A DNA stretch of 64,000 nucleotides from Siphonodentalium dalli (Eukaryota > Mollusca > Scaphopoda > Gadilida > Siphonodentaliidae): positions 46,844,911-46,908,910 of the forward strand of contig CP136066.1 of NCBI GenBank assembly GCA_032622095.1, given 5' to 3'. The notes below the pieces were generated by a model. It did no database searches. It was not told the origin of the DNA and saw only the letters and a program-made list of their open reading frames with translations. Each line of letters begins with the position of its first letter. Positions within the stretch are counted from its first letter, which is position 1. Position numbers and translations under genes: made by a program. Below are positions 10,671 through 60,944 of this stretch, piece by piece.

Positions 10671-10929
10671 AGCGTCTATTATCAAATCCTAAAGATAGAT
10701 GTAACTTTATCCGGAGAGAATCTGATGGTTATTTGGTGCAATTGTGATTTAGGAGATAGGATTTGCGTTTCTTGAATTAAGCTTTTCAATAATTTCCATA
10801 TACAGACATAGATACCATGAAACTCATAATTATGTATATACAATGTATTTCCAGTTCTATACTAAATACTCATTGATGAGTTGTACCTCGTTAAATGTTC
10901 AAATAATGAGTTCATCAAACGTTGTAGGG

Positions 10930-12650
10930 GGGATGGCGTCTAATGCGGAGGGGCGTCTAATGGGGAGGGGCTTCTTATGAGCCATGGATGCATATCAATC
11001 ACATTCGTATGGGGATGGGCGGCTAATGAGCCATGGATGTATATCAATTACATTCGTGTGGGAGAGGGGCGTCTAATGAGTCATGGATGCATATCAATCA
11101 CATTCGTGTGGGAGAGGGGCATCTAATGAGTCATGGATGCATATCAATCACATTCGTGTGGGGGGATGGGGCGTCTAATGCGGAGGGGCGTCTAATGGGG
11201 AGGAGCTACTTATGAGCCATGGGTGCATATCAATCACATTCGTATGGGGATGGGCGGCTAATGAGCCATGGATGTATATCAATTACATTCGTGTGTTGGG
11301 GGGGGGGGGGGGCTAATGAGCCATTGATGCATATCAATTACATTCGTGTGGGAGAGGGGCGGCTAATGAGCCATGGATGCATATCAAACACATTCATGTG
11401 GGAGAGGGGCGTCTAATGAGTCATGGATGCATATCAATCACATTCGTAAGGGGAGGGGCGTCTAATGCGCCATGGATGCATATCAATCACATTCGGTGGG
11501 GGGGGGGGGGCGGCTAATGAGTCATGTATGTATATCAAGCACATGTGTGTGGGGGATGGGCGTCTAATGAGTCATGGGTGTATATCAATCACATTCGTGT
11601 GAAGGGATGGGGCGTCTGCTGAGTCATGGATGTATATCATTCACATTCGTGTGGGGAGAGGGGCGTCTAACGAGTCATGGATGCATATCAATCACATTCG
11701 TGTGAGGGGATGGGGCGTCTAATGAGCCATGGATGCATATCAATCACAGTCGTGTGGGGGGTGGGCGGCTAATGAGTCATGGATGTATATAAATCACATT
11801 TGTGTGGGAGAGGGGCGTCTAACGAGTCATGGATGCATATCAATCACATTCGTGTGGGGGATGGGGCGTCTAATGAGCCATGGATGCATATCAATCACAT
11901 TCGTATGGGGGGTGGGCGGGTAATGAGTCATGGATGTATATCAATCACATTCGTGTGGGGGTGGAGCGGATAATGAGTCATGGGTGTATATCAATCACAT
12001 TCGTGTGGGGAGAGGGGCGGCTAATGAGTCATGGATGTATATCAATCACAATCACATTCGTGTGAGGGGATGGGCGTCTAATGAGTCATGGATGTATATC
12101 AATCACAATCGTGTGGGGGGATGGGGCGTCTAATACGCTATGGATGCATATCAATCACATTCGTGTGATGTGAGGGGCGCTAATGAGTCATGGATGTATA
12201 TCAATCACATTCGTCTGGGGGGATGGGGCTACTAATGAGCCATGGATGGATATCAATCACATTCGTGTGGGGGATGGGCGAATCATTGATGTATATCAAT
12301 CACATTTGTGTAGGAGAGGGGCGTCTAACGAGTCATGGATGCATATCAATCACATTCGTGTGAGGGGATGGGGCGTCTAATGAGTCATGGATGTATATCA
12401 ATCACATTCGTGTGGGGGTGGGGCGGATAATGAGTCATGGATGTATATCAATCACATTCATTTGGGGAGAGGGGCGTCTAATGAGCCATGGATGCATATC
12501 AATCACATTCGTGTGGGGGTGGGGCGGATAATGAGTCATGAATGTATATCAATCACATTCGTGTGGGGAGAGGGGCGGATAATGAGCCATGGATGTATAT
12601 CAATCACCTTCGTGTGAGGGGAGGGGTGTTAATGAGTCATGGATGCATAT
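10930..12650. repeat. ~50-bp minisatellite, about 34 copies, G-rich
   Basis: The unit reads roughly GAGYCATGGATGYATATCAA followed by TCACATTCGTGTGGGGGATG and GGGCGTCTAAT, and varies from 49 to 51 bp through the length of its G-run (3 to 14 Gs). The G-tracts give the plus strand possible quadruplex-forming capacity. Open frames with NESWM, MDAYQSHS and NHIRVG strings are produced by the repeat in three registers and are not genes. The length variation breaks any single frame. Confidence 0.95.
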
Positions 12651-40950: not shown

Positions 40951-41561
40951 AATATTATTTATTCTGATTTAAAAATCGAGATAATAGGTTCGGTTTGTTG
41001 GCTTTTAACTTTGGGAATGTTCCATCAAACTTTTAGGAGAGAATACCGTTAGAAAATCGAAGTCAAACTCTAAATGTTAATTTGGATATAGAGAAATGGC
41101 TTTGGGGCCAAATATTTTTAATAATTTTATAAAAAATGTAAACAATTTTTTTTATGCAATTCTACGTTTTTTGTATAATGGTTTCGTTTTATTTACAATC
41201 GTAATTTTTTTGGCCTTTGAAGCATGGTATGCCTATATAATTGAGTATAATTGACATACGCCGAAAAAATATATTTATATTTGCAATTGTATTTGCACTT
41301 GGGCACTTGATCAATCACACTAATTGTCGCTGTAGCGAGGTGGAACTAATCGATACAAAATGGCGGCCGTCGCCAAAAATAATTTTGTGAACCCCGCTGA
41401 CCCTTCAGTTATGAATAAATTATCCTATTATAAGTAATTTGATCTATGTTTAGATTGGCCGAAAAAGTCGATTAGTATATCTCATATTCGCATACGTATA
41501 CCCTGGTCGCTTCGCTTCCGCGGCTTCGCCGCGGGAGAGCGGGCGCTATTAATCTATTAAT

Positions 41562-41909
41562 CTATATCTATATTTGCGAATGTCTGTCTGTCTGTCTGTC
41601 TGTGTTCTATAGATATTCACAGGGGACCATCTAGATGATACCAAAAGGGTATACTATGGGTAACTTTTAACGATAAAGAAAATGGTGGGGGTTAGAATTT
41701 TCTGAAGTGACGCCGTTGTTGTCAGGGGAAGAAAAGGGGGTGGGCAGAATTGTTTATGTCGCAAATTGCCACGAAACGTACACATAATCATCCCCATGAT
41801 ATGAAGAATCTAAATATGTCAAAAGTGGTGTCGTTCGAGCCAGGGATGCACGGAAAGGGAGTGGGGCACCAACATTGATAAAACTAATTTCAGCGCCGAT
41901 TTCCACCAA
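41562..41909 (+). repeat. Start of the dimeric A/B repeat element (left part)
   Basis: After a GC-rich hairpin (CCGCGGCTTCGCCGCGG, about 41518) the element opens TCTATATCTATATTTGCGAA, then a TCTG tract, a pattern seen at 5' ends of Helitron-like elements. It continues with AAATATGTCAAAAGTGGTGT and GCGCCGATTTCCACCAA, the A and B blocks seen at 56635-58880. It is interrupted after position 41909 by the inserted Helitron. Confidence 0.65.
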
Positions 41910-42119
41910 TCTCATATATATTTTGAAGACCTCTGTTTGTATGTATGTTTGTCTGTCTGTCATTGATACAAATCTACGATTCTCGACCGATCGGGACGAA
42001 ACTTGGTACGTGTGTGTAGTTTGACCAGGCGGTGGACGTTGTCGTATTGGCGAGCCCGTGCGGCGCCCGCTTCGCGCATGCGCAGACGAGATCTCGGAAA
42101 CGGGTGGAGCTCCCATATA

Positions 42120-42965
42120 AAAATGTACCTGGGTAAATCCACCCAGGTTTTTTGGGCCGAAACCCAGGTAAAAATCTATCTACCAAGACATCCACCAACC
42201 ATTAAGACCCCGCGAAACCTGGGTTTTACCATGATTTACCCACCTGAAACTGGATAAAAACCCTGGTATGGGTAAACCTGGGTGTAATTACCCAGGTGAC
42301 CACACCCAGGTGTACCCTACCTGGGTGTTTCCCACCCAGGTCTACCCTGGTGTTTCCTACATGGGTGTTTCCCCACCCAGGTGTACCATGGTGTTATTTA
42401 CCCAGGTGTACCCTGGTGTTTCCTACCTGGGTGCTTCCCATCCAGGTTACCTTGGTGTTATTCACCCAGGTGTACCCTGGTGTTTCCTACCTGGGTGTTT
42501 CCCACCCAGGTGTACCTTGGTGTTATTCACCCAGGTGTACCCTGGTGTTTCCTACCTGGGTGTTTCCCACCCAGGTGTACCTTGGTGTTATTCACCCAGG
42601 TGTACCCTGGTGTTTCCTACCTGGGTGTTCCCCACCCAGGTGTACCTTGATGTTTCCAACCCAGGTATACCTTGGTGTTTTTTTTACGCCGGTGTACCTT
42701 GGTGTTTTCTTACCCAGGTGGATTTCCCATTGAGATGCACCTGGGTTAGAAAACCCCAAGGTACACCCAGGTAAGGAAACACCAAGGTACACCTGGGCAG
42801 GAAAACACCAAGGTACACCTGGGTAAGAAAACACCAAGGTACACCTGGGTAAGAAAACACCAAGGTACACCTGGGTAAGAAAACACCAAGGTACACCTGG
42901 GTAGGAAACACCAAGGAACACCTGGGTGAATAACACCAAGGTACACCTGGGTGGGGATACCAAAG
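42120..42965. repeat. CCTGGGT foldback minisatellite (left subterminal array)
   Basis: To about 42735 units read ACCCAGGTGTACCYTGGTGT plus TTCCTACCTGGGTG (period about 60). From 42740 to 42960 the inverse occurs with period about 30 (AAACACCAAGGTACACCTGG). The array can therefore fold on itself. Long frames in several registers (VPWCFLPRCT-like peptides) are repeat by-products. Confidence 0.9.
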
Positions 42966-42969
42966 TGAA

Positions 42970-44185
42970 ATGATGAGGATGGCAATGAAGTAGATTTTGA
43001 TGGGATGCAGGGGTATTGTTATCAATGGAGTTGTTTTAGTATACTAGAACATTAAGGAAACTGATTGTGCAGCAATACAAGTTTATTCAAGGACAACAAA
43101 CTAACTAAAGATAAAATACATGTATAGAAACACATGTAATATATAAATATATAAACTCATTAAACTGCATGGGTTAAAACTTACTGACAACAAGAGTTGG
43201 GTTAAAATTTTGATTAAAAAACACTTGCAAAGTCCCTCTTCATACACGGATATGGTATGTTAGGCAAGTTACATGTACATGTAGTTGCAATGTATACTAG
43301 TACCGGTACATGACATACCGGTGGACACAAAAATCATTATTTTAGTTCCAATGTCATTTACCAGAATACATGTACATGTTGTACCTTGCAACTACATCTA
43401 CAGTGAGGTAGTTTTGTCTCATTTAAACTTTCTAAATGGGTTTCTCCCTTTGAATGACATAAACTAATGTGAGTATACACATGAGCTGTGGTGTGAAATA
43501 CACACCAAAAAATTATTTCTTAGTCTGAGGACATGTTTCCTGTCATTATCTTACTGCTTACAAATATAGATTTGTAATAATGTGCTGTAATGCTCCAGAA
43601 ATAGTCATATTTTGTCCTGGTTCATAAGAACATATTATTTCTTAGTGTTAGAAGGACATGTTGTCTGATATTATTTGACTCATAAACCCCCAAATGTACA
43701 TGTAAACAGAACATTCGGGAAAGAGACACACCATCTTTATCCTGTTTTATATCAGTACTAAGTAGCAATATTGATCAGATAGCAAAATATGCTATAAATA
43801 GATTTCAGATGGTAGAGATTAAACAATCACATTAATTGCACCAACTCGAAACAGTTAACATACCCTGTAGAATACAGACTATGATCAAGGAGGGTGTCAC
43901 ACACACCCCCACCCGCTTTGGTATGTGATATTCAAGCCATTTTCAGGTGGTATGCTATATACATGTACATACCCAATGTTATCTGGTACTAGGATTTCAC
44001 ACGGCAATATAACCGGCATTCACGATTCAGCAAAAAGGCTAGTATGCAGATATAATAGCAGAAAATTATACAAATTTTGAGTATTTTCCAGCTTAAACAG
44101 ACCCAAGTGATATATTTTTATCTAATTCAGTCTAATGGCTCTTGATATGTTGATGTTTTGGATACTATTTCAGCAAATGTGAGAA
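42970..44185. other. Unique-looking AT-rich DNA with ACATGTAC/ACCGGTAC words
   Basis: Several ACATGTACATGT and TACCGGTA words occur. An AATAAA on the minus strand at about 43083 could be a poly(A) signal, but no minus-strand coding exon was recognised upstream of it. Confidence 0.35.
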
Positions 44186-44189
44186 AAGG

Positions 44190-44530
44190 TGGCTTCTTTG
44201 GGGCATCAGCTTGTCTGAAAAATATATCAAGGTCCCCTAAATCCGATACTACATTTCAGAACAATCCAACCAGTGTCCCATGAAATGGTGGATAATAAAC
44301 TATCATACCAAATTTGATTCAGATTTGATCACACAAACTAAAATTATGATGCGGAAACCAGAAATTAACACGATTCTAAGTCGAAAAAGGGCCATAACTC
44401 TCGCAAAAATGAGCGGAGCACACCTATATTCGAACTTGACCTGTATTTTGGTCTGATAAACTTACATACCACATTTGGTTCAGATATGATCACACAAACT
44501 GAAGTTATCATCCGGAAACCTACAATTTTC
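44190..44530 (+). repeat. GATTCTAAGTCGAAAAAGGG family, copy 2
   Basis: It shares CAGAACAATCCAACCAGTG, TGAAATGGTGGATAA and GGGCCATAACTCTCGC with 34910-35290, and adds a duplicated GATCACACAAACT block (44328 and 44489). Confidence 0.65.
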
Positions 44531-44549
44531 AAAGTTTAAATGTCTATTA

Positions 44550-44873
44550 GGCGACACCAATTTTTAAGTCTGTTTTACGAACATGTGGGCTGATGTGGGG
44601 AGAAAAAAAGTAGATGCAGGAGGGGAAAAAAATAAAAATTAAAAAAATTGTCCCCCCCCCCCAATTTATATCAAGTAAATCTTGAAATTTTACATAAATT
44701 TTACAAAAATTGTGAAAAAAAAACTTTTCGAATGAAATTCTGAACCAAACAAGACATTTCTTGTCATGAAATACATGAAAATATGCAAACAAGTGAAAAA
44801 AAAATTTCATGAAATGGAAAAAAAGTTGTAGGAGGTGTTCGTAAACCGGACTTAAAAATTGGTGTCGCCTTAT
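44550..44873 (+). mobile_element. GGCGACACCAATTTTTAAGTC MITE (Harbinger-like), copy 1
   Basis: The left end is GGCGACACCAATTTTTAAGT and the right end its inverse. Both flanks are TTA (TATTA-GGCGACACC ... GGTGTCGCC-TTATG), a 3-bp TWA duplication as made by PIF/Harbinger elements. It has A- and C-rich low-complexity interior blocks and no transposase. The second copy is at 51838-52210. Confidence 0.7.
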
Positions 44874-44899
44874 GTGTATATAACTCATATAGCTAACTA

Positions 44900-45375
44900 T
44901 TAAAGGTGCTCAATCAGATTCGATGGTCCCCATATAATTAGATTCCAACAACAACATTTTTTTTAGAAATGCTGCTTCAGTAATATCAGAATCGATTAAT
45001 TGCCCAAAAATAATGCTAACCACTGTCAACTACATGTATAGTATAAAATCGACTGATACGTTATATTTATCAACATGCTGTTCGACGAAGTTTGACCTTA
45101 TTATCAACACAAAGCCTCTTCATTTTAGAGTTATCCATCTTCATCCGCAATTTGGTCTGAGACCGTCGGCTCGTCAAATTTTTCTGGGCCACTATTAAGT
45201 ATCGATGGTGATAAATATTAAAATTTCAAAAATTGATATCTAATAACTCTGAGCTTTGATACATGTAGGTGGGTCCCTCGACTTGATTAAAATATTTTTA
45301 CCCCCCCCCCGATTCCATATACATGTATATGTAAATAGCAAATGAGGGGCACTTAATCGGATTATGCATCTTTAA
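44900..45375 (-). mobile_element. TTAAAGGTGC family MITE, full-length
   Basis: TTAAAGGTGCTCAATCAGAT at one end and, reversed, TTAAAGATGCATAATCCGAT at the other. The interior matches the reverse of 45389-45841. Confidence 0.85.
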
Positions 45376-45388
45376 ACTGTATTTGAAT

Positions 45389-45841
45389 TTAAAGATGCAT
45401 AATCTGATGAAGGGCCCCCTGAATTAATGCTCGCACATTACTCTTTATTTGGACTTGGGGGGGTAAAAGATATTTGGTACGAGTCGAGGAACCCACCACC
45501 TATCAAAGCTCAGAGTTATTAGATATCAATTTTTGAAATATACTATTTTTCACGATCAAGAATTAATAGTGGCCCACAGTCTCGGACCAAATTTCAGATG
45601 AAGATGGATAACTCTAAAATCAAGAGGCTTTCTGTTGATAATAAGGCAAAATTTTGTAGAACAACATGTTGATAAATAACATATGTCAGGCAATTGTATA
45701 CTTTAGTTGACAGTGGTTAGCATTATTTTAGGGCAATTAATCAATTCTGATAACGTAACTGAAGCAGCCTTTCTAAATACAAATGTATGATGTTGGAATC
45801 TGATTATATGGGTATCATCGAACCGGATTGAGTACCTTTAA
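45389..45841 (+). mobile_element. TTAAAGATGC family MITE, full-length
   Basis: It opens TTAAAGATGCATAATCTGAT and closes GGATTGAGTACCTTTAA. It lies 13 bp from an inverted sister copy, so the two together form a ~940-bp inverted repeat with arms of about 450 bp. Confidence 0.85.
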
Positions 45842-45874
45842 AATGAACTGTATCCAGTATAAACATGTTAAACC

Positions 45875-46227
45875 TGATAATTAATTAGAGCATGCAGTCC
45901 CTGTTGACATGCGGTATCCGCTGGTAATCTTACCACAGTAATATGTGTTAACTGTGATAACCAAGTTAATTGTTTTTACCACAAAAATTCTGAATTCTAT
46001 CTAGACATTTTGAAAAAATAAAAAAAAATTCTGGTGTGATTACAATGTCAACTTTAAAACAAAATTCATATAAACATCGCATGAAAAATACAGCCTAACT
46101 GCAAATGTGAGGTGGACCACATTCTGCGGCGGTATAACTGACTGCGGTTGATCGCATGAACACGCCTGAATACTGCAGTAATACCCGAGTAATATAAGGC
46201 GAGTTGATTAATTAAAGCATAGCTGTA
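45875..46227. mobile_element. Fragments of the AATTAATTAGAGCAT family
   Basis: AATTAATTAGAGCATGCAG (45879) and GATTAATTAAAGCATAGCTG (46206) both resemble the right terminus of 28326-29377, in the same orientation. GACATGCGGTATCCGCTGGT matches its CCGCGG arm. This is a rearranged relative rather than an intact copy. Confidence 0.5.
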
Positions 46228-46446
46228 ATTTTACATGTATGTTCTATAGACATTGTTGGGAAAGAGAATATAGCTGTGCGACAATGTTAATCCTGATGAG
46301 CTAAGTTAGAAATTTTTCAATCGAAACCTCATAAAAAAAAATATAAATTCAGTTCTCAATTTTCGAACACTTCTAGGAAATTGTTCAAAAATATTGTTAA
46401 AAGATGCCCATTCGATTTGACACTGTAAATATACCCTGTTCAAGTG

Positions 46447-46559
46447 TTCCTGCTAATGTGCTATGATGCGGTTGGGTCCTGCTTAATTGCTATGAATTGC
46501 ACTACCCGCATCATAGCAATTCAGCAGGACCACCAGCATCATAGCATATTAGCAGGACC
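46447..46559. repeat. Nested double hairpin with CTGCTAATNTGCTATGA
   Basis: The outer pair TTCCTGCTAATGTGCTATGATGC (46448) with GCATCATAGCATATTAGCAGGACC encloses the inner pair GGTCCTGCTTAATTGCTATGA (46475) with TCATAGCAATTCAGCAGGACC. The four arms are related to each other, so the structure is a palindrome of a tandem duplication. Confidence 0.85.
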
Positions 46560-46561
46560 AC

Positions 46562-46980
46562 TTGGCCAGTGGTAAAATAGTTTGTTTTCCATACGGATAT
46601 GTGTTTTCAAATAATCATGTAATGATATCTAACATACATGTATATGATCCCATTTATAGATTTTATTCATCACGGCCAGATAAACTTTGTATACAGACAG
46701 TTTTACCAAACTTAGAATTTTTATTAGGTGCTTTCATTGTAGCTGTAATTACTAGTATTAAAAGAGTGCTCAATAAAGTTTGTTTTATCATTTATGCTCA
46801 TTTGGAATTTGGATGCTATTTAATTCTGTTTATCTATATAATTGGCTGCACTGCTAAATTTTGACTCATTTCAGTCATTTGATGTCAGTACATGTAGTTG
46901 TCCATCGAAATGGCGAACACAACCAAAGACAAATTACAAGAGGAAAGACAACAAATACATTTGATGTGCACTAAAACAGA
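46562..46980. other. Spacer with a 100-codon hydrophobic frame
   Basis: The frame 46562-46864 encodes a C-terminal hydrophobic stretch (LLGAFIVAVITSI, CYLILFIYIIG) but has no family signature and sits between MITEs. Probably chance AT-rich translation. Confidence 0.2.
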
Positions 46981-47149
46981 TACAGTAGTGCCCTAAGAAA
47001 TCGACCCCTTAACCACAGCAGAATTATGTGTAACTTTCAGGATTTAGTCGGATATATGGCTTGTTGCCATTCATCGGAAAGCTCTCCCCGAGTTTAATAC
47101 CCGTAATTCTGCTGTGGTTAAGGAGTCGATTAATTAGAGCATTACTGTA
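46981..47149. mobile_element. Foldback MITE of the TACAGTARTGCYCTAA family, copy A
   Basis: TACAGTAGTGCCCTAAGAAA at the left and the inverse of GATTAATTAGAGCATTACTGTA at the right. The arms continue through CACAGCAGAATTAYG and pair over most of the element. 169 bp. Confidence 0.8.
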
Positions 47150-48645
47150 GTTACAAATGTATGTCTAGCCTCCTGTTGTGTCACTAATAAGATCTTTAAT
47201 TCACATACGGTACACATGTACATGTACATGTACTATATACCTGTTCAAGCGTTTACAAGTGTCAGTCATCGAGAAACTGACCAAAAGTTTTGGTAGTATA
47301 TAATATAGGCTAGCACTGCACTTGGGCTACATGTACATGTTCTGTAAGTGATTATAATGTACTATTTTTATATTCTGCTGTGAAAGTGTTGCTGAATGAA
47401 ATTTAAGTTTACCCCGATATTCTAAGTCCGCTCGACTAAGATGGGTTTTTTTCTCGAAAACTGATATCTGAATATACATGACTTTTTGTACGTCTTCCAC
47501 TGGTTGGTATTCCCTCTAAAATGACTAATTTTAACTGATTAGATTAGCCCTGGTATGGAAAACTCTAACTGTTATAGCCCGATGAGCGGTTTACTGCCAA
47601 CAGCGGTGATGATATGATGACCAGCGTTGTGCATGGCATATGTTGATCCAGGTAAGAATGCTACCATACATTCCAAACATTCATTAAATATCTTATTAAT
47701 AGTAACCCAAACTACACAAGAGACTAGTATTACTAAGATTGGGCTCGATTAATGATGTGACACTTTCAGTACTTCATTTACTAGTAGCCTGGTACTGGTG
47801 GGCCTGGCTACAGATACTTGTTTGGCGTGTTTGAGGCCTGTGGCACAAGGGCAGCAGAATCAATTAAAATTTCTCTTATTGTAGTGTAGTACATGTACAT
47901 GAATAGTACCGGTAGTACAGCACACAAAGAGGTATATAGTACCGGCACATGTACATGTACTCTCTCTGTTTTCACACATGTTTTTTTTCAATTTAACAAC
48001 ATGAGTCTTTTATGACACATACATGTACTAAAGTGAAAGTAGGCCTACATGTATATAATGTGCACCCAGTATACCGGTACATGTACTGATATATTACATT
48101 GCAATACAGTCCGAGTACAATGATATAGCAAAATTATGCATAGTAGAGTAACAACCTTTTGTACAAACAGTCCTGACAATGATATACCGGGATATCATGG
48201 TGATAGTTCATACATTTGGAATTACCGAATACCTGAGTTTGTGGATAGACCGCTTCATGCGATGTTTATGTGAATTTTTATTTTTAAGTCGGCATTGCAT
48301 ACGGTAGTCCTATAAACCACACCAGAGAATAGCAATTGTCGGTCAGTGACCAACTTCTTATGTTTATGCAATCGATACAATCCGGTTCTGCTTTTGATGT
48401 CCAGTTCGATATTTGTGGTGTGTTCTTGTGCAAAAATATAATTCTAACTAATGCGCCAAAAATCAGGTTTATAAATTTATCCATTCTTGAGCAAGAGCAA
48501 CTCGTAAAACTTGTATGGTATAACATTCCAAACTGAGTATTTCTGCTATCAAACCATATGATAATAATGTTGAACCGGACATCGAAATCTGAACCGCATT
48601 TATGGATTGCAGCACGTGATGTTGAATAAACAGTTATAGAGGATA
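47150..48645. other. Unique-looking region rich in ACATGTAC and ACCGGTAC
   Basis: Multiple ACATGTACATGT words (47215, 47328, 47890, 47947, 48024). No exon or RNA gene was recognised. Confidence 0.35.
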
Positions 48646-48867
48646 TACAGTAATGCTCTAATTAATCGACTCCTTAACTACAGCAGAATTATGGGTAACT
48701 TTTCAGGATTTAGTCGGAAATATGGGTTGATGCCATTCATCGGAAACGTTCTCGGTGAGAGCTTTCCGATGAATGGCAACAAGCCATATTTCGGACTAAA
48801 TCCTGAAAAGTTACCCATAATTCTGCTGTAGTTAAGGAGTCGATTAATTAGCTCTAGAATTACTGTA
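48646..48867. mobile_element. Foldback MITE of the TACAGTAATGCTCTAA family, copy B
   Basis: TACAGTAATGCTCTAATTAA at the left, inverse at the right. The arms of about 105 bp are nearly perfect through CTACAGCAGAATTATGGGTA, CAGGATTTAGTCGGA and CCATTCATCGGAAA, with a loop of about 12 nt. The same ends cap the larger element at 28326-29377. Confidence 0.9.
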
Positions 48868-49964
48868 ACATGGTTTATAATATACAAATGTATACTGTAT
48901 GGGAAACATCAGAGGTTTACAAAGTAATAAAAACAGTTGATTTGTTCTTTATTCTTGTGGTTATATACACGTACATACATGTATTCTAAAAATAAATGTC
49001 CTTTACAACGTGGATCAATGAAATGCGGTTGTTGCATTTAAAATGCATTGAGGTTGCATTGTGTCTCGCCACTTTGTAAATGCCTTAATGACAGCATTTA
49101 AATTAAATGCACTGCATTGGGAATAATCGCAGTCGCATTGAAATTACCGATCATTGCGCCAAAAAAGTATACTAGTATGAACACCCAAATAACGATACGA
49201 TAGTGTATTTTGCAATTTTAGTTATAATTTTGTTTAATTTAAATTCACATCTGAATAATTCTGTGTTATTTTCCCACTCCTGGTGTACATGTATATGTTC
49301 GGAATCGGACATTCATGATGTAGTTTTCCATTCAAAATGGAATAAACATAAATAAACACTGTTGACATTAATTGTTTTATAATCAGAATCTGAGAATCAT
49401 GATTCTCATTTTGATTCTAGTAAAAAGTCTTGATTCCCTGTAGAAAGTGAAACACTAACATTTTGATTATTGCCAAAAATCTGATGGATTTTAAGGCCTG
49501 CATCAAGACATTTGTTTGTGAATAAATCAAGGTAAATGTGTTAAAATATGAACGCATTTACAAATGTGTTGCTCCAAAATCGCAAAGTAGATTCGAACAT
49601 GTGGTCGCTTTTCTAAGAAATTTGTGAGTGGTCTGTACATGTACATACATGTAAGTTACTTGACCAATTACACAAGGAGTCGAGGGACACAATCAATGAG
49701 GACGTTTGTACTAAAAAATATTTTTTTACGCAAGGAACGAACACAAGGCCACTTTCTTAATTTATATTATGAGACAACAAGACAGATCGTAAATCGCTGT
49801 TATATGACAATATATGTGGCCATCATAATGGTCGACAGGCATGACGCCAACAAAAACCAATCTGTCAGGCTAATATAAAGAAGTCGCGACTTATTGCTGG
49901 TGGAACCTATTAAAGGCATCGTTCCATTTCGTTAATAACAACTTACATGTAACATTCACCTCCA
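48868..49964. other. Low-feature region with one perfect 16-bp palindrome
   Basis: GAGAATCATGATTCTC at about 49391 is a perfect palindrome. TGCATTTAAAATGCATTGAG-type words cluster at 49030-49145. No gene was recognised. Confidence 0.4.
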
Positions 49965-50165
49965 CCTCTTTACTCTTGGGCTCCAAATAAATATGCATGC
50001 ACCAGCTGCATCCACGTTTATTATTTTTCTTGGGAAATCCCCCCCCCCCCTGCACAGTGCTTATTTGGGTCTGCACGTTTATTAATATTTTGAAGCTATG
50101 AAAATTTAAATCAGCACAAATTCAAGATTTCTATATGATTCAGATGTAAAAATGATCAACACGTC
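49965..50165. repeat. CTTGGGCTCCAAATAAAYATGCATGC family, copy 2
   Basis: Same block order as 27050-27240, with a C11 run replacing the shorter C-run of copy 1. Confidence 0.75.
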
Positions 50166-50400
50166 TACATTAGTTCCTAGCTAAACAAGACATTTTGTCA
50201 TATGTTTATACTTTACTGTGAAATTGCGTTTCTTCCGTTCTCCATGAACGGATTCTCAAAATGTTTGGTTTTCCAAAAAACAAGGATTCGAACTGTCTGA
50301 ACTGAACTCCATGCGTTTGTTTAAATAGATGAATAAATAATGGGAAAGACATACAATCCTAGTTCATAATGAATTTAAGTATATAAATATAAATAATAAA

Positions 50401-50523
50401 CGGCGGATTCAACGTGGTCATGGGTTTTGACCGCGTTAAAAAAATCAGCAAACTCTGCATGAACCCCGAAGTTTGCTGATTTTTTCTCGCGGTCAAAACC
50501 CCATGACCGCATTGAAACCGCCG
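50401..50523. repeat. Hairpin MITE with CGGCGGTTTCAATGCGGTCA arms
   Basis: The arm 50401-50454 pairs with 50470-50523 around a 15-nt loop, with about six mismatches in 54. The arms contain GGTTTTGACCGCG and AAAAATCAGCAAACT. Confidence 0.85.
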
Positions 50524-50789
50524 TTCATTTCTTATATGAATAACACAATTTAAGATTGGTGAATTATTTCTTTTGGTTAATTTAATAAACGTACAGGACC
50601 AAATAACGATCGTACAGGTGGGAATTTTACCTCGATTTTAATAATCGTACATTAGGCACTCAAGAGTACATATTCAAGTATGTGGCAAACCAAAAAAACA
50701 CCACACGATACATACATGTACCTGTACTACATGTTGACTCGTATACCTGAACCTGCTATAAAAATTATTTGGTTAACCACAGTTGATGT

Positions 50790-50915
50790 TTTGCTCAGAG
50801 TTCCCCCTGCACTATTATTTGGGTCTGTACTTTTATTAACTTTCAATGGAATTTCCCCCCCCCGCACTATTATTTGGGCCTGCACTTTTATTTGGAGCCT
50901 GAGAGTAAGTTGCAT
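50790..50915. repeat. CACTATTATTTGGGYCTGCAC tandem pair
   Basis: GCACTATTATTTGGGTCTGT (50808) and GCACTATTATTTGGGCCTGC (50864) flank a C9 run. Related to the CTTATTTGGGTCTGCAC block of the 27050 and 49965 repeats. Confidence 0.65.
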
Positions 50916-50946
50916 TGACATTTATTTTCACGAATTACCATGCTAA

Positions 50947-51650
50947 AGGCCAAAGAAAAAAGATTGTATGTTTCCGGTAAAAAAAAATTTAGGGTACTAG
51001 TAGGTAGGTAGGGAATTTTTTTTATTTTATTTTATTTTGATATTTTTGATCCAGCTGCAGAAATATTGAACTACCTCGACCAAAGTGACATAAAATGCCA
51101 ACCCGTGCCATGGGGAAAGTATTACTTGATCAACACAGTGGAAATATACATTAAGATTGATAAAAAATCAAACTTACTTCATGCTTACGTGTGTTTTTTA
51201 TTATATCTAATACCACATTTTCATAAATTTGGCTATAAACTTGGTACAAAATTGATGTCACTAACTTTTTATAAGAATTTTACCAATAATACCGCCATTA
51301 TACCGTACATGTATTGTGACGATTACATCCCATTGTCTGGGGGTAGCCAGTACACCCACCGAGCATGCCTGGTTTTTGGAAACAGTAGCTACTAGTACAT
51401 GTATACCCCTAATATATGCAGTGATAACCTCTTTACATGTATATATACAGATACACACCCACCATGTCTGTTGATAGAGTTCCATAAGTCCCAAACAAGA
51501 CATAAAGCAGGCAGGAGATCCACTCTCAGGAAATTAAAATTGCGAAAATTTTGACTTTTTCTCAAAATATCAATAAAAAGTTTAGGGTCGGCGGGTTATT
51601 TTTAGGGTCGGTCGATGTACGGAAACATAGTATCTTTTTTCTTTGGCCTA
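50947..51650. mobile_element. TIR element GGCCAAAGAAAAAAGAT...ATGTTTCCGGTA
   Basis: The left end AGGCCAAAGAAAAAAGATTG and the right end TATCTTTTTTCTTTGGCCT are inverted and continue into TATGTTTCCGGTA / TACGGAAACATA and TTTAGGGT words. The length is about 700 bp. The 109-codon frame 51066-51395 inside has no transposase features. TAA/TTA-like flanks suggest Harbinger but are not exact. Confidence 0.6.
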
Positions 51651-51837
51651 AGGAACATTGCAACTGGTTTGAAGTAACATGGCCGCGTTGCGTCAACACT
51701 GGAACTGCATTGATGGTAAGTTTCAACATGGTCTCACTGAGGTTCTATTAAATATAAATACTAGTATGGTTGAGGCCAACTTGAGGGAGACAATTATTTT
51801 GAGAATATGTGATCCTGTGTTAACATGAGCCTAAGGC

Positions 51838-52210
51838 GACACCAATTTTTAAGTCTGGTTTACGAACACCTCCTACAACTTTGTTTCCATTTCATGAAAA
51901 AAAAATTAACTTTTTTTGTCCCAAAATATTTTACACGCGTACTGATTTTCATGTGCTGTCGCATCCGGTTCTGCTTATGATCATTTACAGATCCATATTT
52001 TCATGTATTTCATGACAAGATATGTCTTGTTTGGTTTGAACCGAATTTCATTCAAAAACATTTTTTCACAATTTTTGTAAAATTTATGTAAAATTCCACG
52101 ATTTACTTGATATAAATTGGGGGGACAATCTTTTTTATTTTAATTTTTTTCCCTCCTGCATCTACTTTTTTTCTCCCCACATCGTAAACCAGACTTAAAA
52201 ATTGGTGTCG
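51838..52210 (-). mobile_element. GGCGACACCAATTTTTAAGTC MITE (Harbinger-like), copy 2
   Basis: It is inverted relative to 44550-44873 with the same termini. Flanks are TAA on the left and TTA on the right. It holds an extra internal block (CACGCGTACTGATTTTCATG onward, about 80 bp) absent from copy 1. Confidence 0.7.
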
Positions 52211-52520
52211 CTTAAATATCATCTGATGGAGTCAAAATCATTGAACCGTCACTTATGCATGCACATGTTGTCTTGATGTTGAGTCTGGCTTTCATCATTT
52301 TCATTAGTTTTACTGTTAATATCCACCAAAGGTTGAGGTGTTATGGAACAACTGTATGGCATCGTATACTGTTATCTTCCGAGTAAATATGGAGTCTCTA
52401 ATTCTTTTATCAGTCACGCATCTACTCATCAAATAGTATAATCCTTAAATATTTGTAGTCCAGGTGATCTCGACTGCACAGTACATGTATAAACATTCAT
52501 CTGTGCACAGTGTGTTTTAA
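52211..52520. other. No recognised feature
   Basis: Short spacer between a MITE and a tandem duplication. Nothing recognised. Confidence 0.35.
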
Positions 52521-52735
52521 ATTTCTTTGCCGTGTAACAACTGTTGTCCCAAGTTTCAATGCCTTGTCCTCCTGGTATGTAGGGATTACCAATTTACCAT
52601 TGCCGTGTTTTAATTTGCAATTTTGATGATGACGCTCACTAAGCTTGTTGATAATTTTCTTTGTCGTGTAACAACTGTTGTACCAAGTTTCTACGCCGCG
52701 TCCTCCTGGTATTTAGGGATTACCGGTGCCTTTAA
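52521..52735. repeat. 135-bp tandem duplication
   Basis: TTTCTTTGYCGTGTAACAAC, GTTGTMCCAAGTTTC and GTCCTCCTGGTATKTAGGGA recur at about 52522 and 52657. It lies 3' of the LINE remnant on the minus strand and may be its 3' UTR. Confidence 0.7.
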
Positions 52736-52977
52736 TAGCGTCAGATGCATCATTGCCAGTTAATGTACATTAGAGTGGAACTGAATTAACAATGTCACAT
52801 TGACACAGTACTCAGTTAAGACCAGTAAAACAGCAAAAGTAGTATTATTGTACAGCAGGCTTATCACTATCAGTACTTACTACATGTACTGACCCCTTAC
52901 TATCGTGGATCAATCTGAATCTGAATGGTTACGCTGCAGATCCCAATTATGGTAATTTCGCAGCGGGCGAGAGAGTC

Positions 52978-53489
52978 TCAGATCTTTTCCTTCAGCGCAC
53001 TCTTGAAGGAATCCACAGGCTGTTGTTGTAGGATTAAGGATTCCTCCAGCTGATTCCAGTCGCATATAGTTCGAACAAATGTGGAATTAGTGAACTGAGC
53101 TGACACGTATGGTATAGCCTCGTAGCACTGACTGTTGTTCCTTTAAATTAGGTGCCGAGGAATTTGGCTGGTGACGTAGCCTGTCAGAACTTTGCTCTGC
53201 GATATAAGACGCCTTGTTTCGGGTGTAAAGTATTGATTAGGTGGTATAGCCGGGACCAATCCACCCACCACCTTACTCATGAATCCCAGCCGATTTATTT
53301 TCCGCCGTTTCTGCAATGTTGGTAAATCTAGCTCGTAGAGGATCTTGGTCATATATCCATCTTCTTTGCTCTTATAGTCTCTTTTAATGAAACGGGCTGC
53401 TCTACGCTGGATTCTTTCCAGCTTGTCGATGTGATTTTGTTGGTAGGGGTCCCAGATGGTGTCTGCGTAGTCATGTCATGATCTTCAAA
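52978..53489 (-). pseudogene. C-terminal fragment of a LINE (CR1/L2/jockey-type) ORF2
   Basis: On the minus strand from about 53483 the frame reads YADTIWDPYQQ, then IDKLERIQRRAARFIKRDY, LPTLQKRRKINRL, and after an in-frame TAA (at RHLI, about 53143) continues to FVRTICDWNQLEESL and FKSALKEKI before the terminal stop at 52978. The WDPY...LE.IQRRAARF and P.RTI.DWN.L patterns are characteristic of the region downstream of the reverse transcriptase in jockey/CR1/L2-group LINEs. The RT core and the endonuclease are missing, so this is a 5'-truncated, stop-containing, inactive remnant. The exact clade cannot be fixed from this piece. Confidence 0.8.
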
Positions 53490-54216
53490 CTTCTCAATTC
53501 TTCTTCTTCTGGACAGGTGCATTATGAGCAGGCCACTGGCACTACATCATGATTGTACCGGTACCACAAATTCAATTTTGAGAAAATATTCTGGTTATGG
53601 CCAGGTAGCTGAGGTACTGTTCAATACTATAGTTGATCCGTTTCGTTATCGTAGCTTAATTCTTACTGTTCCGGGAATTGAAATATTTTTTGTCACATGA
53701 AATTCAGTCTTTTTCGATATTTGCGCACATACATGGGGAGAAATCGGCGAATCTTATATATAAGTCCACAGTTTATCCGTTTGTAGCCAATACACCATTT
53801 CCTTCTGTCAATCCGCGTTGATTCGCGACAAAATTAACTCAAAATACCACAAGAAATTATCCGCGCTTCATTTTGAAGAACGATAACTAAAAGTTAAGAT
53901 TGTAATTTGGCTGCAGAAACGAAACGAAACGAATTTTGAAACACAATAATTGTATTCACTAATATTTTCCTGTTGGTATATTGTCTACTATAGTATATGC
54001 AATCATTTATTTGAAATAATAAGTATCACTTAGAGAATAATTCTTACTGATAATTAGAAATCTCTTTATTTTGTATCCCTTTAATATTAAATAATGGCCC
54101 TGAAAATTGTCTGTTTGTCAGTTTAATGTTCACTAATTATAGCTAGGCTGTTAGATAAAGTATGATATTGCTTCATTTGTCCGGGGTAGTGTATTGTCAT
54201 ACTGTCATAATAAACT
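53490..54216. other. No recognised feature
   Basis: Spacer between the LINE remnant and the 45-bp minisatellite. Nothing recognised. Confidence 0.35.
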
Positions 54217-55965
54217 TCAAGTAATAAGGTAACTACTCGTCAATGATGCTTGAATACATAAATGATTAATAAGGTAACAACTACCCGTCAATGATCGACG
54301 TCTTAATATAGAAAGGTTTTATAAGGTAACTAACTACACGGCAATGATACTTATTATAGAAGGTTAATAATTTAACTTCTTGTCAATGATGCTTTAATAT
54401 AGAAAGGGTTAATAAGGTAACTACCCGTCAATAATGCTTTAGTGTAGAAATTGTTACTAAGGTAACTACATGTCAATGATGCTTTAATAAAGAAAGGGTT
54501 AATAAGATAAAGTTCTACACGTCAATGATGCTTAAATATAGAAAGGGCTAATAGGGTAACTACACGTCAATGATGTTTTAATATAGAAAGGGTTAATATG
54601 GTAATTACACGCCAATGGTGCTTTAATATAGAAAGGGTTAATATGGTAACTACCGTCCATGATGCTTTAATATATAACTGGCTACTATGATAACTACATG
54701 TCAATGATGCTTTATTGTAGAAAGGGTTAATAATGTAACTAATCACCAATGATACTCATTATAAAAAGGGTTAATAAGGTAACTGCCTGTCAATTATTGC
54801 TTCAACGTAGAAAGGGTTAATAAGGTAATTACACGCCAATGGTGCTTTAATATAGAAAGGGTTAATATGGTAACTATCAGTCAATGATGCTTTAATATAG
54901 AAAGTGTTATAATATGGTAACTGCACGTCAATGATGCTTTGATACAAAAATGGTTAATAAGGTAATTACCCGTCAATGGCGCTTTAATATAGAAATGGTT
55001 TATAATGTAACTACTCACCAATGATACTTAGTATAGAAAGGGTTGTTTAATGTAACTACCCGTCAATTAATGCTTTAATATAGAAAAGGTTAATAAGGTA
55101 ACTACACGCCAATGATACTTAGTATAGAAAGGGTTGGTAAGGTAACTACACGACAATGATACTTTAGTATATAGAGGGTTAATTAGGCAACTACCCGTCA
55201 ACGATGCTTTAATATAGAAAGGGTTAACATGGTAACTACACGTCAATGATATTTTAATAAAGAAAGGGCTAATAAGGTAACTACATGTCAATGCTGCTTT
55301 AATACAGAAATGGTTAATAAGGTAACTTCACGTCAATGATGCTTTAATATAGAAAGGGTTAATACTGTAACTACTCACCAATGATACTTAGTATAGAACG
55401 GGTTAATAAGATAACTACCCAGCAATAATGATGCTTTAATATAGAGAGGGTTATACTAAGGTAACTACACGTCAATGATGCTTTAATACATAAATGGTTA
55501 ATAAGGTAACTACCCGCCAATGGCGCTTTAATATAGAAAGGGTTAATAATGCAACTACTCACCAATGATACTTAGTATAGAAAGTGTTAATAAGGTAACT
55601 ACCTGTCAATTAATGCTTTAATATAGAAAGGGTTAATAAGGTAACTACACGCCAACGGTACTTAGTATAGAAAGGGTTAATAAGGTAACTATATACGACA
55701 ATGATACTTTGATATATACAGAGTTAAGGAGCCAACTACCCGTCAATGATGCTATACTATAGAAAGGGTTAACATTGTAACTACACATCAATGATATTTT
55801 AATATAGAAAGGGTTAATAAGGTAACTACGCGTCAATGATGCTTTAATAAAGAAAGGGTTAATAAGGTAACTACCTGTCAATTAATGATTTAATATAGAA
55901 TGGTTAATAAGGTAACTACACGCCAATGGTGCTGTAATATAGAAAGGGTTAATAAGGTGACTTCA
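54217..55965. repeat. 45-bp minisatellite, about 39 copies
   Basis: The unit reads AAGGTAACTACACGTCAATG followed by ATGCTTTAATATAGAAAGGG and TTAAT. Substitutions and small indels are frequent. 45 bp is 15 codons, so minus-strand frames with INPFYIKASLTCSYL-like 15-residue repeats stay open for several units, but they break repeatedly and are not a gene. Confidence 0.95.
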
Positions 55966-55997
55966 ATGCAGATTATACAGTTTAACAAATTACCACA

Positions 55998-56286
55998 GGT
56001 GTATATATCCGGGTGAACACTGTAGTAAATACCTGGGCGAAACCCTGGTGTAAATACCTGGGTGTAAATACCTGGTGTAAATACCTGGGTGTAAATCCGT
56101 AAAAACCCGGGTAAACTGGGGTTTATACCTAACATATATAGAAAACACCTGGGTAAATCTATATAAATCCCTGATTTACCTGGGTGTAACCTGGGTGTGA
56201 CCTGGGTGGAACCAGGGTAAAACCTATATGTACCGGTGTATACCTAGGTAAACACCAAGATTTACCCAGGTACATTTTTATATGGG
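55998..56286. repeat. CCTGGGT right subterminal array
   Basis: TACCTGGGTGTAAA and GACCTGGGTG words recur about a dozen times. The array ends in TTTACCCAGGTACATTTTTA, the inverse of the left terminus at 42112. Confidence 0.85.
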
Positions 56287-56634
56287 CTATCGGCTTGAAA
56301 TTTGGTATGTGAATGTATCTTGCCCGGATACGAATTTTATCGGGTCGCCGAGCCCGTGCGACGCCAGCTTCGCGCATGCGCAGACGAGATATCGGAAACG
56401 GGTGGAGCTATCGACTTGAAATTTGGTATGTGAATGTATCTTGCCCCGGATACGAATTTTATCGGGTCGCCGAGCCCGTGCGACGCCAGCTTCGCGCATG
56501 CGCAGACCAGATCTCGGAAACGGGTAGAGCTATCGACTTGAAATTTGGTTTTTGAATAGCCCGGACAACGTCGGGCTCATCGACTTGAAATTTGGTTTTT
56601 GAATAGCCCGGACAACGTCGGGCTCATCGGCTAG
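56287..56634 (+). repeat. Helitron right part: 121-bp and 48-bp tandem units
   Basis: ATCGRCTTGAAATTTGGTAT starts at 56289 and 56410 (period 121). Each unit contains TTCGCGCATGCGCAGA, with GCGCATGCGC matching the NRF1 consensus. The following shorter units (about 56531 and 56579, period 48) each carry the AGCCCGGACAACGTCGGGCT hairpin. Confidence 0.8.
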
Positions 56635-58880
56635 TTGATTTATATTCTTCTTCGTGATACAAGGAATTTAATTGTGCTATTTAACAACCCCAAATTGTAG
56701 TCGTTTGGATGAGATATTTGGGGGGGGGGGGGGGGCACTCAATTTGATAAGAATGGGTTTAGTCGCCGATTTACACCACACTTATACAAAATCATCGCCA
56801 TGGTATGAGGAGTCTAATGGTGTGGCTTAACTCTGTCAAATGTGGCCTCATTCGAGTCAGGGGTGCACTTAAATGGAGAGGGGCACCAAAATTGATACAC
56901 AATATTGTTAGCGCCAATTTCCACACGTTCTTATCCATGATACGAGGAATCTAATCGTGTGATTTAAAGACCCCATATTGGTGCTGCTTGGGTGAGAGAT
57001 GGGAAGGGGATGGGTGGGCACCAAATTTGATAAACAAAATGTTTAGTCGCCGATTAGCACCAAACTTATAAATAATCATCTCCATGATACCAGGAGTGTA
57101 TTTGTGTGGTTTAAGGATGTCACAAGTGGGGCCATTCGAGTCAGTGGTGTATAGAGGTGAGAGTGACACACACAAATTATAACAATATGTTTAGCGCCGA
57201 TTTCCACCAGATTGATACATATTCTTCTCCGTGATACGAGGAATCTTATCGTGTGGTTTAGATACACCAAATTGGTGCCCTCTGGGTGTGAAATATGGGG
57301 ACCTTAAATTTGATACGAATTTGTATCAAAATACAATTTTCACCAATTTTATATGAGGATTAACTGTCATGTGGACTGTTTTATGGAGATGTAACCGTGA
57401 GGTAAGTGGACATAACTTGTGTAAAAACCCGAAGGGTTTTACATACAAGTTATGACCACTTACCTCATGGTTACATCTCCATAAAAATAGTCCACATGAC
57501 AGTTAATGCTTATATTTATATACATTTAGCGAAAAAGCCACTTTTGTAAATGTATTTAAATCCAAAAGTGTATCGTGACAAAAACAGCCCAAAATACCCA
57601 ATAGCACCCGTGGCAAAAGTTAATTGGAACAATTTCTCTTCATATTGAAACCCGATGATGTATTAAGTCAATCCTGCGCGAGTCCAAATGCGCCCAAAAC
57701 ATTACGCGTTCGTCTATCCAAACCCAATGACGTATCGATGGTGTTATGAGCTTGGTGTTATGAGCCGTTGCGCATTCACCGATAAATAACTGCAACTAGC
57801 CACGTGGGCGCCGACCAATCAGAATGCTGGATTTAGTGATGACAACACTTAGTATGTAAATATATATAGGCACCTCTAATCTCTAATGCGTCTAAGTGTG
57901 CGGTTTATCGGTGACAAAAGTGGCGCCGCTTGAGTCCGAAATATGGACGGGAGGGTCACCAAAAACTGATTTTTAGTATCAATTACCATCAAATTCTAAC
58001 ACGTTCTTCTCAAATGATACGATAAATCAAATCGTGCTGTCTGTCGTTCTGTCTGTCTGAATGCGTTCTATATATAACTTCACGGGATACAATCGAGATG
58101 GCACCAAGGCGTTCTAAGAGGGGTAACTTTTTACGAGAAAGATAATGGTGTGGGTTAAAATTTTCTAAAGTGACGCTGTTGGTGTCAGGGGAAGAAAAGG
58201 TGGGAGGTCGGCAAAATTTAAAAAATATGGTGAAATAGTTTTGTCGCCGATTTCCACCAAATGCATACATAATCACCTCCGCGATATGGCGCTGTTCGAG
58301 TCAGCGTTGCAGGGGCATCAGCAATTGATTTAATAAACTATTTTTAGCGCAGATTTCCACCAAATTGATATATTATTCTTCTCTATGATACGAGGAATAT
58401 AATTGTGTGATTTAAAGACGCCAAATTGCTGCCGTTTTGGGTGAGAGATGGGGGGTCATAACTAATCTAAGTACTTGTTTAGTTGCTGATTACCACCAAA
58501 CCTATATATAATCATCTAATGTCTAATGTACATGTTTAAATATGTCAAAAGTGGAGCCGTTAAAGTAATGCATGATGATGGCAGTTGCACCAAAGCTGAT
58601 ACAAATATATTTAGCACTAATTTTCACCAAATTCATACACGTTTTTCTCTAATGATACGATGAATTAAATCACATTTGGTGTCGTTTGGGTCACGAATGG
58701 CGAGAGGATATGCACAATCATTGATAATATTGCTATTCGCCGGTATCCACCTATAAGTTATATATAGTCACCCAGGCCATCTCCATATCATTTTAAGGAG
58801 TTTTGGGCGTTCAAATTTCACAATCTCGACAAATGGTGACCCAATTAAGTCACTTGAACAATTAAATCTTCCCAACTGTC
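56635..58880 (+). repeat. Dimeric A/B tandem repeat, about 284-bp period
   Basis: A units (TTTAGTCGCCGATTWSCACC, ATCATCTCCATGATA, GTCAAAAGTGG) start near 56764, 57048, 58244 and 58480. B units (AGCGCCGATTTCCACCA, TTCTTCTCCRTGATACGAGG, GGTGAGAGATGGGG) start near 56912, 57195, 58350 and 58614. Spacing alternates 148/136. A TCTGTCTG-bearing piece at 58020-58260 matches 41580-41760. A foldback insertion lies at 57359-57507. Frames over the array are shadows. Confidence 0.8.
57359..57507. repeat. 149-bp near-perfect foldback
   Basis: ATTAACTGTCATGTGGACTG at the left pairs with its inverse ending at 57507. The arms are about 72 nt with a few mismatches, and the loop is GAA. It sits inside the A/B array and was probably inserted there as a hairpin MITE. 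Confidence 0.9.
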
Positions 58881-60944
58881 ATATGTATATGGGGATGGCA
58901 ATCAGGGCATTCACACAATGAGCTAGCAAAAAAGAGATACATGGAAGAAGCATTAAATGTATATTTATCATTATATTTAAAGCCACATGGCGGTTTGCGC
59001 CCCAAAATACACAAAATAATATTCGCTTTTAAAATTTCCCCGGTATCAAAATAGGTAGATAAATACCAAAACTACATTTCTACGACCAATATATGTCCAA
59101 TAAAGACGCATTCAAGTCATGAAAATTACAATAAAATAGCAATATTCGGGTCCCGAATTTTTTTTCCAACATAGCTGCCATTTTTGGATGATGCAATCAC
59201 CAACAACAGCCGAGGTTTTCCGGGTGTAATTGTAAATAAGCTTCCCCAGCGTCTTATAATTTCCGGCACGCGATACAGGGGTTTCAATTTGATCGTATGT
59301 GTCCCTGTGAGAAAAATGGTCTCTGTTGACAAGAATTTAATGATAGGACGGTCATCCTGAATTTATCGGAGACATGGCGATGGTGCGATTGGGGAGGGGG
59401 TTCAGAAATGAACATATTATTACTTATACATGTATAATAAGTAATTATGTTGAGATGCATTTGTATTTAAATTTCAATCCAACATCATTATCGTAGTAAA
59501 TTGCATGATTTGCAGTATATGCTGAATATCTTTCTTACAGAATATAGGAATGGGTCGCCAAGTATTAGAAAATGTCATGCATTTATACTCCGGCTACCGT
59601 AGAGGTCGTATTCAACCAGTTAAAAATATGGGAACGTTTTAATGTTCTGACGGAGAACTTTATAGCTTTGGAAAAAACAACTCAGTGACTATATATATTT
59701 ATTTATTACTTGTTCCTTAATAATATATTTCACAAAATGGGGTGTGACACTCCAGATTGCATGATTTGTCTGTGACTTTTGTGAGTCGACATCGAAATAA
59801 ACATTGAATTGATTACCCGTGAGAAATTTAATTATTGTAATGGATGCTAATCAAACTCGACTCAACAAAGTGACATATTTCATGCAACATCGAGCTGGGA
59901 TCTTCGTGAACTACGTACACAGTGTAATACACTATTTACTGAGGAACGATATTAACTAAGAATATATTAGCTGCATTCACTGTTTTTTTAAAATGTTTAT
60001 AAACTTCCCTATATATCTGAACATGACTTGAACTGGTGTAGAATTATCTCTACAGGCGTAGCCAGTGTAGAGATTCGTGATATGATCTAGCTAAGTATGT
60101 ATGCATATAGTTTTTCACAATTTACGTATATCGATCGTCCATTGCATGTTTATATGTTGAAATCAACTGTAAAAAAGATAGACAGGCGGGGAGAGTGTAT
60201 ACACACGCAAGTATAGCATTGTAACTGTGTTAATTATCTACTTGGATTAACTGTTTTGAATATATCTTTTTAACACACGGAAAAATTAGATATCATATGA
60301 AAGTAGTAGATGTGATCCTTGTGTTCCGCACTGCTGTATATAATTTGAAATTTGTGTCCTGGGAACGGCGTGTAAACAATGTAGACACATTTTGAGGAAA
60401 AATAAATTAAAATAAATTTAATCCTTTTCTACTACTGAAACCGATGGTGAAGACGCTGTTTTTTTCATTCTATTCCAATATCAAATGGGGTAACAGGTGT
60501 GATATGGCCATGTTGGGACAGACATTCTCGTAATTATATGGTTTACGATTAAGCATTGTTTGTGTATATTTCATTTTATTGCTAACTTGGCGATAGTTGG
60601 TGCATCTTAAGCCACGTATCACAGACAATCAGCATTTTTCATTACCAATTGTCATCATGGATGCCATTTTGATTAGAACATTATGCTCTAAGCGGATTTA
60701 TCGGATTTTGAACATGGTGTACCGGTAGAGGATATGTTTATTATTCCTCTTCAAAATGGAATAAAAACCAACTAAGTCCAAATATTTTCAAGGTCAAACT
60801 TTTATCGACAAGACTATTTTGTCTTTTTCAGCATTTAGCCATGACACGGAGGTCTTACATGTTTGCCCTTTTCCCACATTTCGTCTTGTGACTCAGAGGC
60901 AGGTGGTTTTAATTAAACTGATGGTGAAATAAAATAAACGAATT
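58881..60944. other. Low-feature region
   Basis: No exon was identified. The minus-strand frame at 59126-59332 has a mixed, protein-like composition but no motif. Confidence 0.3.

Follow-up and report, generated by a model that had tools for sequence, protein, structure and literature searches.

The 64,000-nucleotide stretch of the Siphonodentalium dalli genome analyzed here (the window; a section of contig 6 from position 46,844,911, in a whole genome of 2.23 Gb in nine contigs) contains a nest of repeats, in which an A/B repeat is interrupted by a non-autonomous Helitron and the Helitron in turn by a 14,175-bp non-autonomous cut-and-paste element with terminal inverted repeats (TIRs). We have high confidence in these three insertion layers. 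The coordinates of the nest in the original prediction are confirmed. Of the extent given there, 41562 to 58880, the nest itself stands and the exact ends shift, since the outer repeat starts at 41561, right after A41560, and its likeness to a paralog runs to about 58950, a value read by eye beyond 58900, where the aligned query stops. The features of the locus, in window positions, are the following (in junctions, a slash marks the boundary).

41561 to 41909, plus strand: left portion of the outer A/B repeat; TC start following A41560, resembling a Helitron 5' end; same A/TC start in the paralog L102, and 58042-58770 aligned over the join
41910 to 42111, plus strand: left half of the Helitron, with the 5' TC end, the TCTGTCTG stretch and the first 122-bp unit
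42110 to 42111, plus strand: target duplication CT, left copy
42112 to 56286, plus strand: TIR element of 14,175 bp, non-coding, probably a non-autonomous TRC-type CACTA/EnSpm element
42112 to 42139, plus strand: left TIR, 28 bp
42140 to 42960, plus strand: left subterminal ACCTGGG/CCCAGGT arrays, from motif counts
44550 to 44869, plus strand: insert resembling a miniature inverted-repeat transposable element (MITE), with GGCGACACC ends and TTA on either side (by eye), present in family members
51835 to 52212, minus strand: second copy of the MITE-like insert, inverted, ends by eye
54222 to 55962, plus strand: tandem array of 45-bp units within the 14-kb element, present in relatives too
55990 to 56258, plus strand: right subterminal CCTGGGT region
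56259 to 56286, minus strand: right TIR
56287 to 56288, plus strand: target duplication CT, right copy
56289 to 56634, plus strand: right half of the Helitron, with the remaining 122-bp units, two 47-bp hairpin units and the 3' end CTAG
56635 to 58950, plus strand: right portion of the outer A/B repeat, with its end set approximately by eye

The innermost element is delimited by the TIR CCCATATAAAAATGTACCTGGGTAAATC, which lies at 42112-42139 and recurs in exact inverse form at 56259-56286 (28 bases identical). The 22-base core of this TIR, allowing up to three mismatches, is found at only these two places in the window, against a mean of 0.00 over 100 shuffles. The dinucleotide CT flanks the element on both sides (42110-42111 and 56287-56288), and removal of the element together with one CT yields GGGTGGAGCTATCGGCTTG, which has an uninterrupted sibling within the window near 56400. 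A search of the source genome for this empty site, proposed as a check in the original prediction, finds 17 alignments (loci L002-L008) that run from the Helitron 5' end through the join without a break. Owing to the genomic overlap of L003 and L004, these alignments amount to 13 distinct places. The unbroken join reads GGGTGGAGCTATCG or a one-base variant at these loci, and many genomic matches to the Helitron left half stop exactly at 42111.

Single intact Helitrons align with the rejoined Helitron over its whole length, with 481 of 501 positions identical for L075 and 486 of 501 for L076 (gaps are not counted in these comparisons). Taken arm by arm, L075 (518 bp) matches the left at 196 of 202 positions and the right at 285 of 299, and L076 at 198 of 202 and 288 of 299, respectively. 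The larger differences consist of a 16-base microsatellite stretch missing from the window copy and of one extra 47-bp hairpin unit present in it. A better fit of the two halves to two separate full-length Helitrons had been named beforehand as an outcome that would speak against the nest; in both cases compared, the two halves align to the same full-length Helitron.

Without the insertion, the Helitron measures 548 bp (41910-42111 plus 56289-56634), which is too short for Rep/helicase coding. It starts with TC at 41910 after A41909 and ends with CTAG at 56634 before T56635, displaying the 5' TC, the A/T insertion site and the lack of target duplication typical of Helitrons. The 5' ends of 20 other Helitrons, taken from matches without matching flank, are preceded by A in 16 instances and by the CTAG of another Helitron in the other 4. 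Near the 3' end, a hairpin with a 6-bp stem lies 6 nt before CTAG (-6.4 kcal/mol). This fold is matched in stability by 9 of 200 shuffles, so that on its own it is only modest evidence; the hairpin unit, a 47-bp repeat, is present in two copies. The GC-rich GCGCATGCGC units are part of the 122-bp repeats of the Helitron. Genome-wide, the 26-mer 5' end has 15,763 exact copies (7,658 + 8,105). The window Helitron shares with known non-autonomous Helitrons carrying internal satellite-like repeats the A/TC...CTAG/T placement, the 3' hairpin, the internal units (here of 122 bp) and the occurrence in head-to-tail tandems. Such tandems are present in L003, L006, L008 and other loci, where CTAG is followed directly by the next TC and the number of 122-bp units varies. 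The introduction of PMC7492417 mentions whole Helitron elements in tandem; the oyster Cg_HINE, as described in excerpts of the same paper, is of the Helentron type and prefers TT sites, whereas the window Helitron has an A/T site and a CTAG end.

The outer join reads CCACCAA/TTGATTTATATTC. Once rejoined, the outer flanks are collinear through the join with the neighboring A/B repeat at 58042-58770, apart from a single gapped base at the join. Of 4,109 first-look candidates in the genome, 40 were scored against a 234-base query spanning the rejoined site, with the join behind base 150, and all 40 are unbroken over it at 86-90% identity; six weaker partial matches of 70-77% are among the matches listed. 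The empty site proposed for the outer join is thus found both in the source genome and within the window itself. The start of the outer repeat, A/TC, is like that of a Helitron.

A paralog on contig 8, L102, has a Helitron at the corresponding position of its outer repeat and lacks the 14-kb element. Its junctions read ...CCACCAAA/TCTC and CTAG/TTGAGATATATTTTCC, and it starts at the same A/TC (the equivalent of 41560/41561) with different upstream sequence. The window stretch at about 57315-57863, which holds a 165-bp palindrome (57351-57515), has no counterpart in L102 and is probably another insertion in the outer repeat. Far outside the nest, at 7486-7813, the window also contains an interstitial telomere-like repeat, a degenerate array of 55 GGGTTA units (71% matches).

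Helitrons also occupy the same A/B position in further copies, with similar junctions in L002 and L071 (one place), L008 and L075. This recurrence weighs against an insertion of the Helitron at the window locus, as the Helitron may instead have been inherited along with the A/B repeat, and shared ancestry of repeat and Helitron must therefore be weighed against repeated insertion. If the two had spread as one composite, solely the 14-kb element would have inserted at the window locus; L102, where this repeat has its Helitron at the identical point, and the similar junctions at the other loci are in line with such a spread. We nevertheless regard it as rather unlikely. The flanks of window and paralog are 84.4% identical on the left (366 aligned columns) and 90.2% on the right (215; the percentages use L074, which is the same place as L102), yet the 5' parts of their Helitrons are 95.8% identical. 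The window Helitron is nearer (99.4%, microsatellite columns left out) to that of L005, which is set in unrelated sequence. At L072 the flank is related (86%), but the Helitron is 93% identical over its first 44 bases and 57% over the compared 5' part. We favor, on the strength of these sequence comparisons, separate insertions that would have entered already diverged repeats at one position, unless gene conversion homogenized the Helitrons.

We also considered an insertion hotspot at the A/B position. Junctions of the CCACCAAN/TC type number 17 in the genome (5 exact and 12 one-mismatch junctions, with 10 of these 12 forming a cluster on C7); the junction of the window is one base shorter and hence outside this count. 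Beside the 15,763 exact 5' ends, 17 junctions indicate that the A/B position takes a small share of the Helitron family, and no strong preference is claimed; the comparison is a rough one, as the two counts differ in stringency (exact plus one-mismatch versus exact). The scan of the loci for junctions covered one strand, and the minus-strand loci L076 and L078-L081 appear in the flank comparison instead.

The family to which the 14-kb element belongs has several hundred copies. The exact 28-mer TIR of the element is found 863 times genome-wide (435 on the plus and 428 on the minus strand), while a reversed control pattern gives 0; the TIRs of the family are CCCATATAAAAATGTACCTGGG-like. The 97 exact TIR places listed for contig 1 form 37 inward pairs 8.7-20.3 kb apart and 23 single ends. 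Spacings of 13.8-14.35 kb account for 16 of the 37 pairs, 19 are longer and 2 shorter. All 20 fetched pairs, picked for a spacing of about 13.9-14.9 kb, display a 2-bp target duplication, and only 2 agree over 3 bp; as two of the pairs repeat the flanks of two others, they represent 18 distinct sites. Segmental duplicates with the same flanks are C1:244441342 with 244457282 and C1:270684602 with 270974441. The duplicated dinucleotides vary, with TA in 3 of the 20 pairs and AT, TT, AA, CC, TG, AG or TC in the rest. Further 2-bp duplications are the CT of the window and those of 4 out of 5 further copies, including CG and AT (the fifth has no right end in the fetched stretch). Tc1/mariner, which would require TA duplications, was rejected on account of the just 3 TA pairs.

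Eleven relatives were studied, five chosen by a 99-100% left-end match to the window and six by spacing. The window type accounts for seven of them and a second type for two, and the remaining two, 8.7 and 20 kb long, are less alike. Seven copies, including that of the window, are mutually 99.2-99.6% identical, with the window at 99.2-99.4% to its six relatives, and the two second-type copies are about 97% identical to the window type (gaps ignored throughout). With gaps counted, long aligned pieces of the window type range from about 95 to 99.6%. Divergence among the window-type copies is even along their length. The identity matrix leaves out C1:86578790 (8.7 kb, different middle) as well as C7:65609082 and C1:105442655 (right end outside the fetched stretch). 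The 20-kb C1:105442655 (L060/L061; right end not fetched) and the 8.7-kb C1:86578790 (L059) have the element ends in common and differ in their middles, which suggests internal loss from a longer ancestor.

Inside the TIRs, the window element carries 40 ACCTGGG/CCCAGGT motifs, of which the first kb holds 32 and the part from 13 kb to the right end the other 8; mononucleotide shuffles give a mean of 0.5 and a maximum of 3. The nest had been predicted to account for the occurrence of CCTGGGT arrays 14 kb apart, and both arrays indeed turn out to be subterminal parts of one 14.2-kb element.

The longest open frame of the window element spans 179 amino acids (aa) and lies inside the CCTGGGT array. 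No frame above 200 aa occurs in the window element or in the relatives examined, save one of 607 aa, which lies in an insert that one copy acquired later. This insert, in C6:23635277 (L011/L012, about 9384-11204 of the joined stretch), matches DUF3504 (E 3.9e-15) and is Crypton-like. The longer relatives were considered as possible autonomous forms and rejected: in the 20-kb C1:105442655, bases 3400-8360 of L060 are free of Pfam matches (its remainder was screened just for long frames), and in 6 kb of a second 20-kb copy, frames do not exceed 143 aa. An Rfam search of 41562-57000 returned nothing at gathering score, and a phage collection searched with 41562-42150 returned no match.

We infer that the family is best placed, as a non-autonomous and TRC-like lineage, in the CCC/2-bp branch (TRC) of CACTA/EnSpm. 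Its TIR begins with CCC, its 2-bp target duplications are of varied sequence, and short repeated motifs (ACCTGGG/CCCAGGT) lie just inside the TIRs, as in CACTA elements, for which excerpts of PMC8978399 describe subterminal repeats as typical. CCC termini and 2-bp duplications are given as signs of animal TRC elements in the parts of PMC1636069 and PMC4298943 that deal with them. The former reports 2-bp repeats in 7 of 14 copies of SmTRC1 and further TRC elements in Tribolium (27-bp TIR) and Aedes, and the latter includes Spongebob_HMa as an animal TRC element. The 14-kb element resembles these elements, as far as those accounts go, in its CCC start, its TIR length (compare the 27 bp of Tribolium) and its 2-bp duplication, and SmTRC1 likewise has internal tandem repeats. 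It differs in having 14.2 kb without Transposase_21, compared with about 5.2, 5.8 and 9.2 kb for the animal TRC examples described there, next to non-autonomous ones of 0.4-0.5 kb.

The genome has 78 matches to Transposase_21, in long open frames, and 14 control genomes have 0. Ten of the matches share an identical score and a 909-aa open frame. Several observations weigh against placing the element in TRC. All six frames of the 14-kb element are free of Pfam matches (E up to 1) and thus of a transposase domain, where the same procedure detected, as a control, DUF3504 at 3.9e-15 in one frame of a relative's insert; a Transposase_21 gene would be expected within a TRC element, though a non-autonomous copy need not carry one. 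None of the nine Transposase_21 matches on C1 has a listed exact TIR closer than 82 kb. A 2.6-kb stretch whose end lies 0.6 kb ahead of one of the Transposase_21 domains is not similar to the element and lacks the subterminal motif. With no Transposase_21 gene tied to the TIRs, it is therefore from the ends and duplications that we infer TRC membership. An origin in another group with 2-bp duplications, e.g., PHIS/ISL2EU or Plavaka-like, would fit the fact that the 14-kb TIR is linked to no transposase, and excerpts of PMC12730594 describe 2-bp duplications in other lineages too. It appears unlikely to us, as the CCC..GGG termini with varied 2-bp duplications match TRC, PlavakaA has TGT termini according to the same excerpts, and Transposase_21 matches in long open frames are present in the genome. 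Along C7:18.86-24.4 Mb, 12 Transposase_21 matches are accompanied by 10 one-mismatch Helitron junctions, 9 of which lie 28-34 kb from such a match; this pattern suggests a large unit repeated along that stretch.

It is very improbable, and already largely refuted, that the arms are two different Helitrons joined by recombination between tandem units, with the 14-kb block not being one insertion: the 122-bp units and the frequent head-to-tail arrays make misalignment possible, but the CT duplication is exact at a clean TIR boundary, the 2-bp rule holds in all 20 fetched family pairs, and one single intact Helitron matches both arms.

In the three-layer account that we favor, the oldest layer is the A/B repeat, with a Helitron-like A/TC start of its own. 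A rolling-circle, non-autonomous Helitron then entered between A41909 and T56635 with no duplication of the target, and the 14,175-bp element subsequently entered this Helitron at the junction of two 122-bp units, duplicating CT. This element would have been moved in trans, most likely by a TRC-type CACTA/EnSpm transposase (Transposase_21).

Identity to relatives climbs inward, from 86-90% for the outer repeat, through 96-97% over the full length of the Helitron (best left arm 99.4%), to 99.2-99.4% for the 14-kb element. This rise agrees with the nesting order, with the caveats that closeness to relatives does not date an insertion and that some of the relatives were selected for being close. 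The relatives of the 14-kb element have its MITE-like inserts as well; these inserts therefore entered its ancestor and predate its arrival in the window. Nesting depth is thus not always equal to age. The relative chronology of three mobile systems that had been proposed is consistent, in its order, with the inward rise of identity.

The three-level nest claimed at the outset is borne out by the empty sites at both joins and by the match of both Helitron arms to one intact Helitron. Structures of this kind are ordinary, and what sets the present one apart is how large and widespread its innermost element is; the nest is nevertheless unusually well proven, since both joins have empty sites and every layer has relatives. 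The large non-coding, TRC-like family that emerged as a by-product is the more interesting part: its members are mostly at least 14 kb long and apparently gene-free, with 863 exact TIRs, and one type is about 99% identical over seven copies. We consider it possible, with somewhat less than even confidence, that a lineage of gene-free TIR elements of 8.7-20 kb kept its length while reaching hundreds of copies in one genome, moved wholly in trans. If this is true, non-autonomous cut-and-paste elements need not shrink, and a TRC-type transposase would tolerate, or even need in cis, a 14-kb non-coding body with no shrinkage to MITEs. The 14-kb family would then, if it holds up, offer a natural test of end recognition by TRC transposases.

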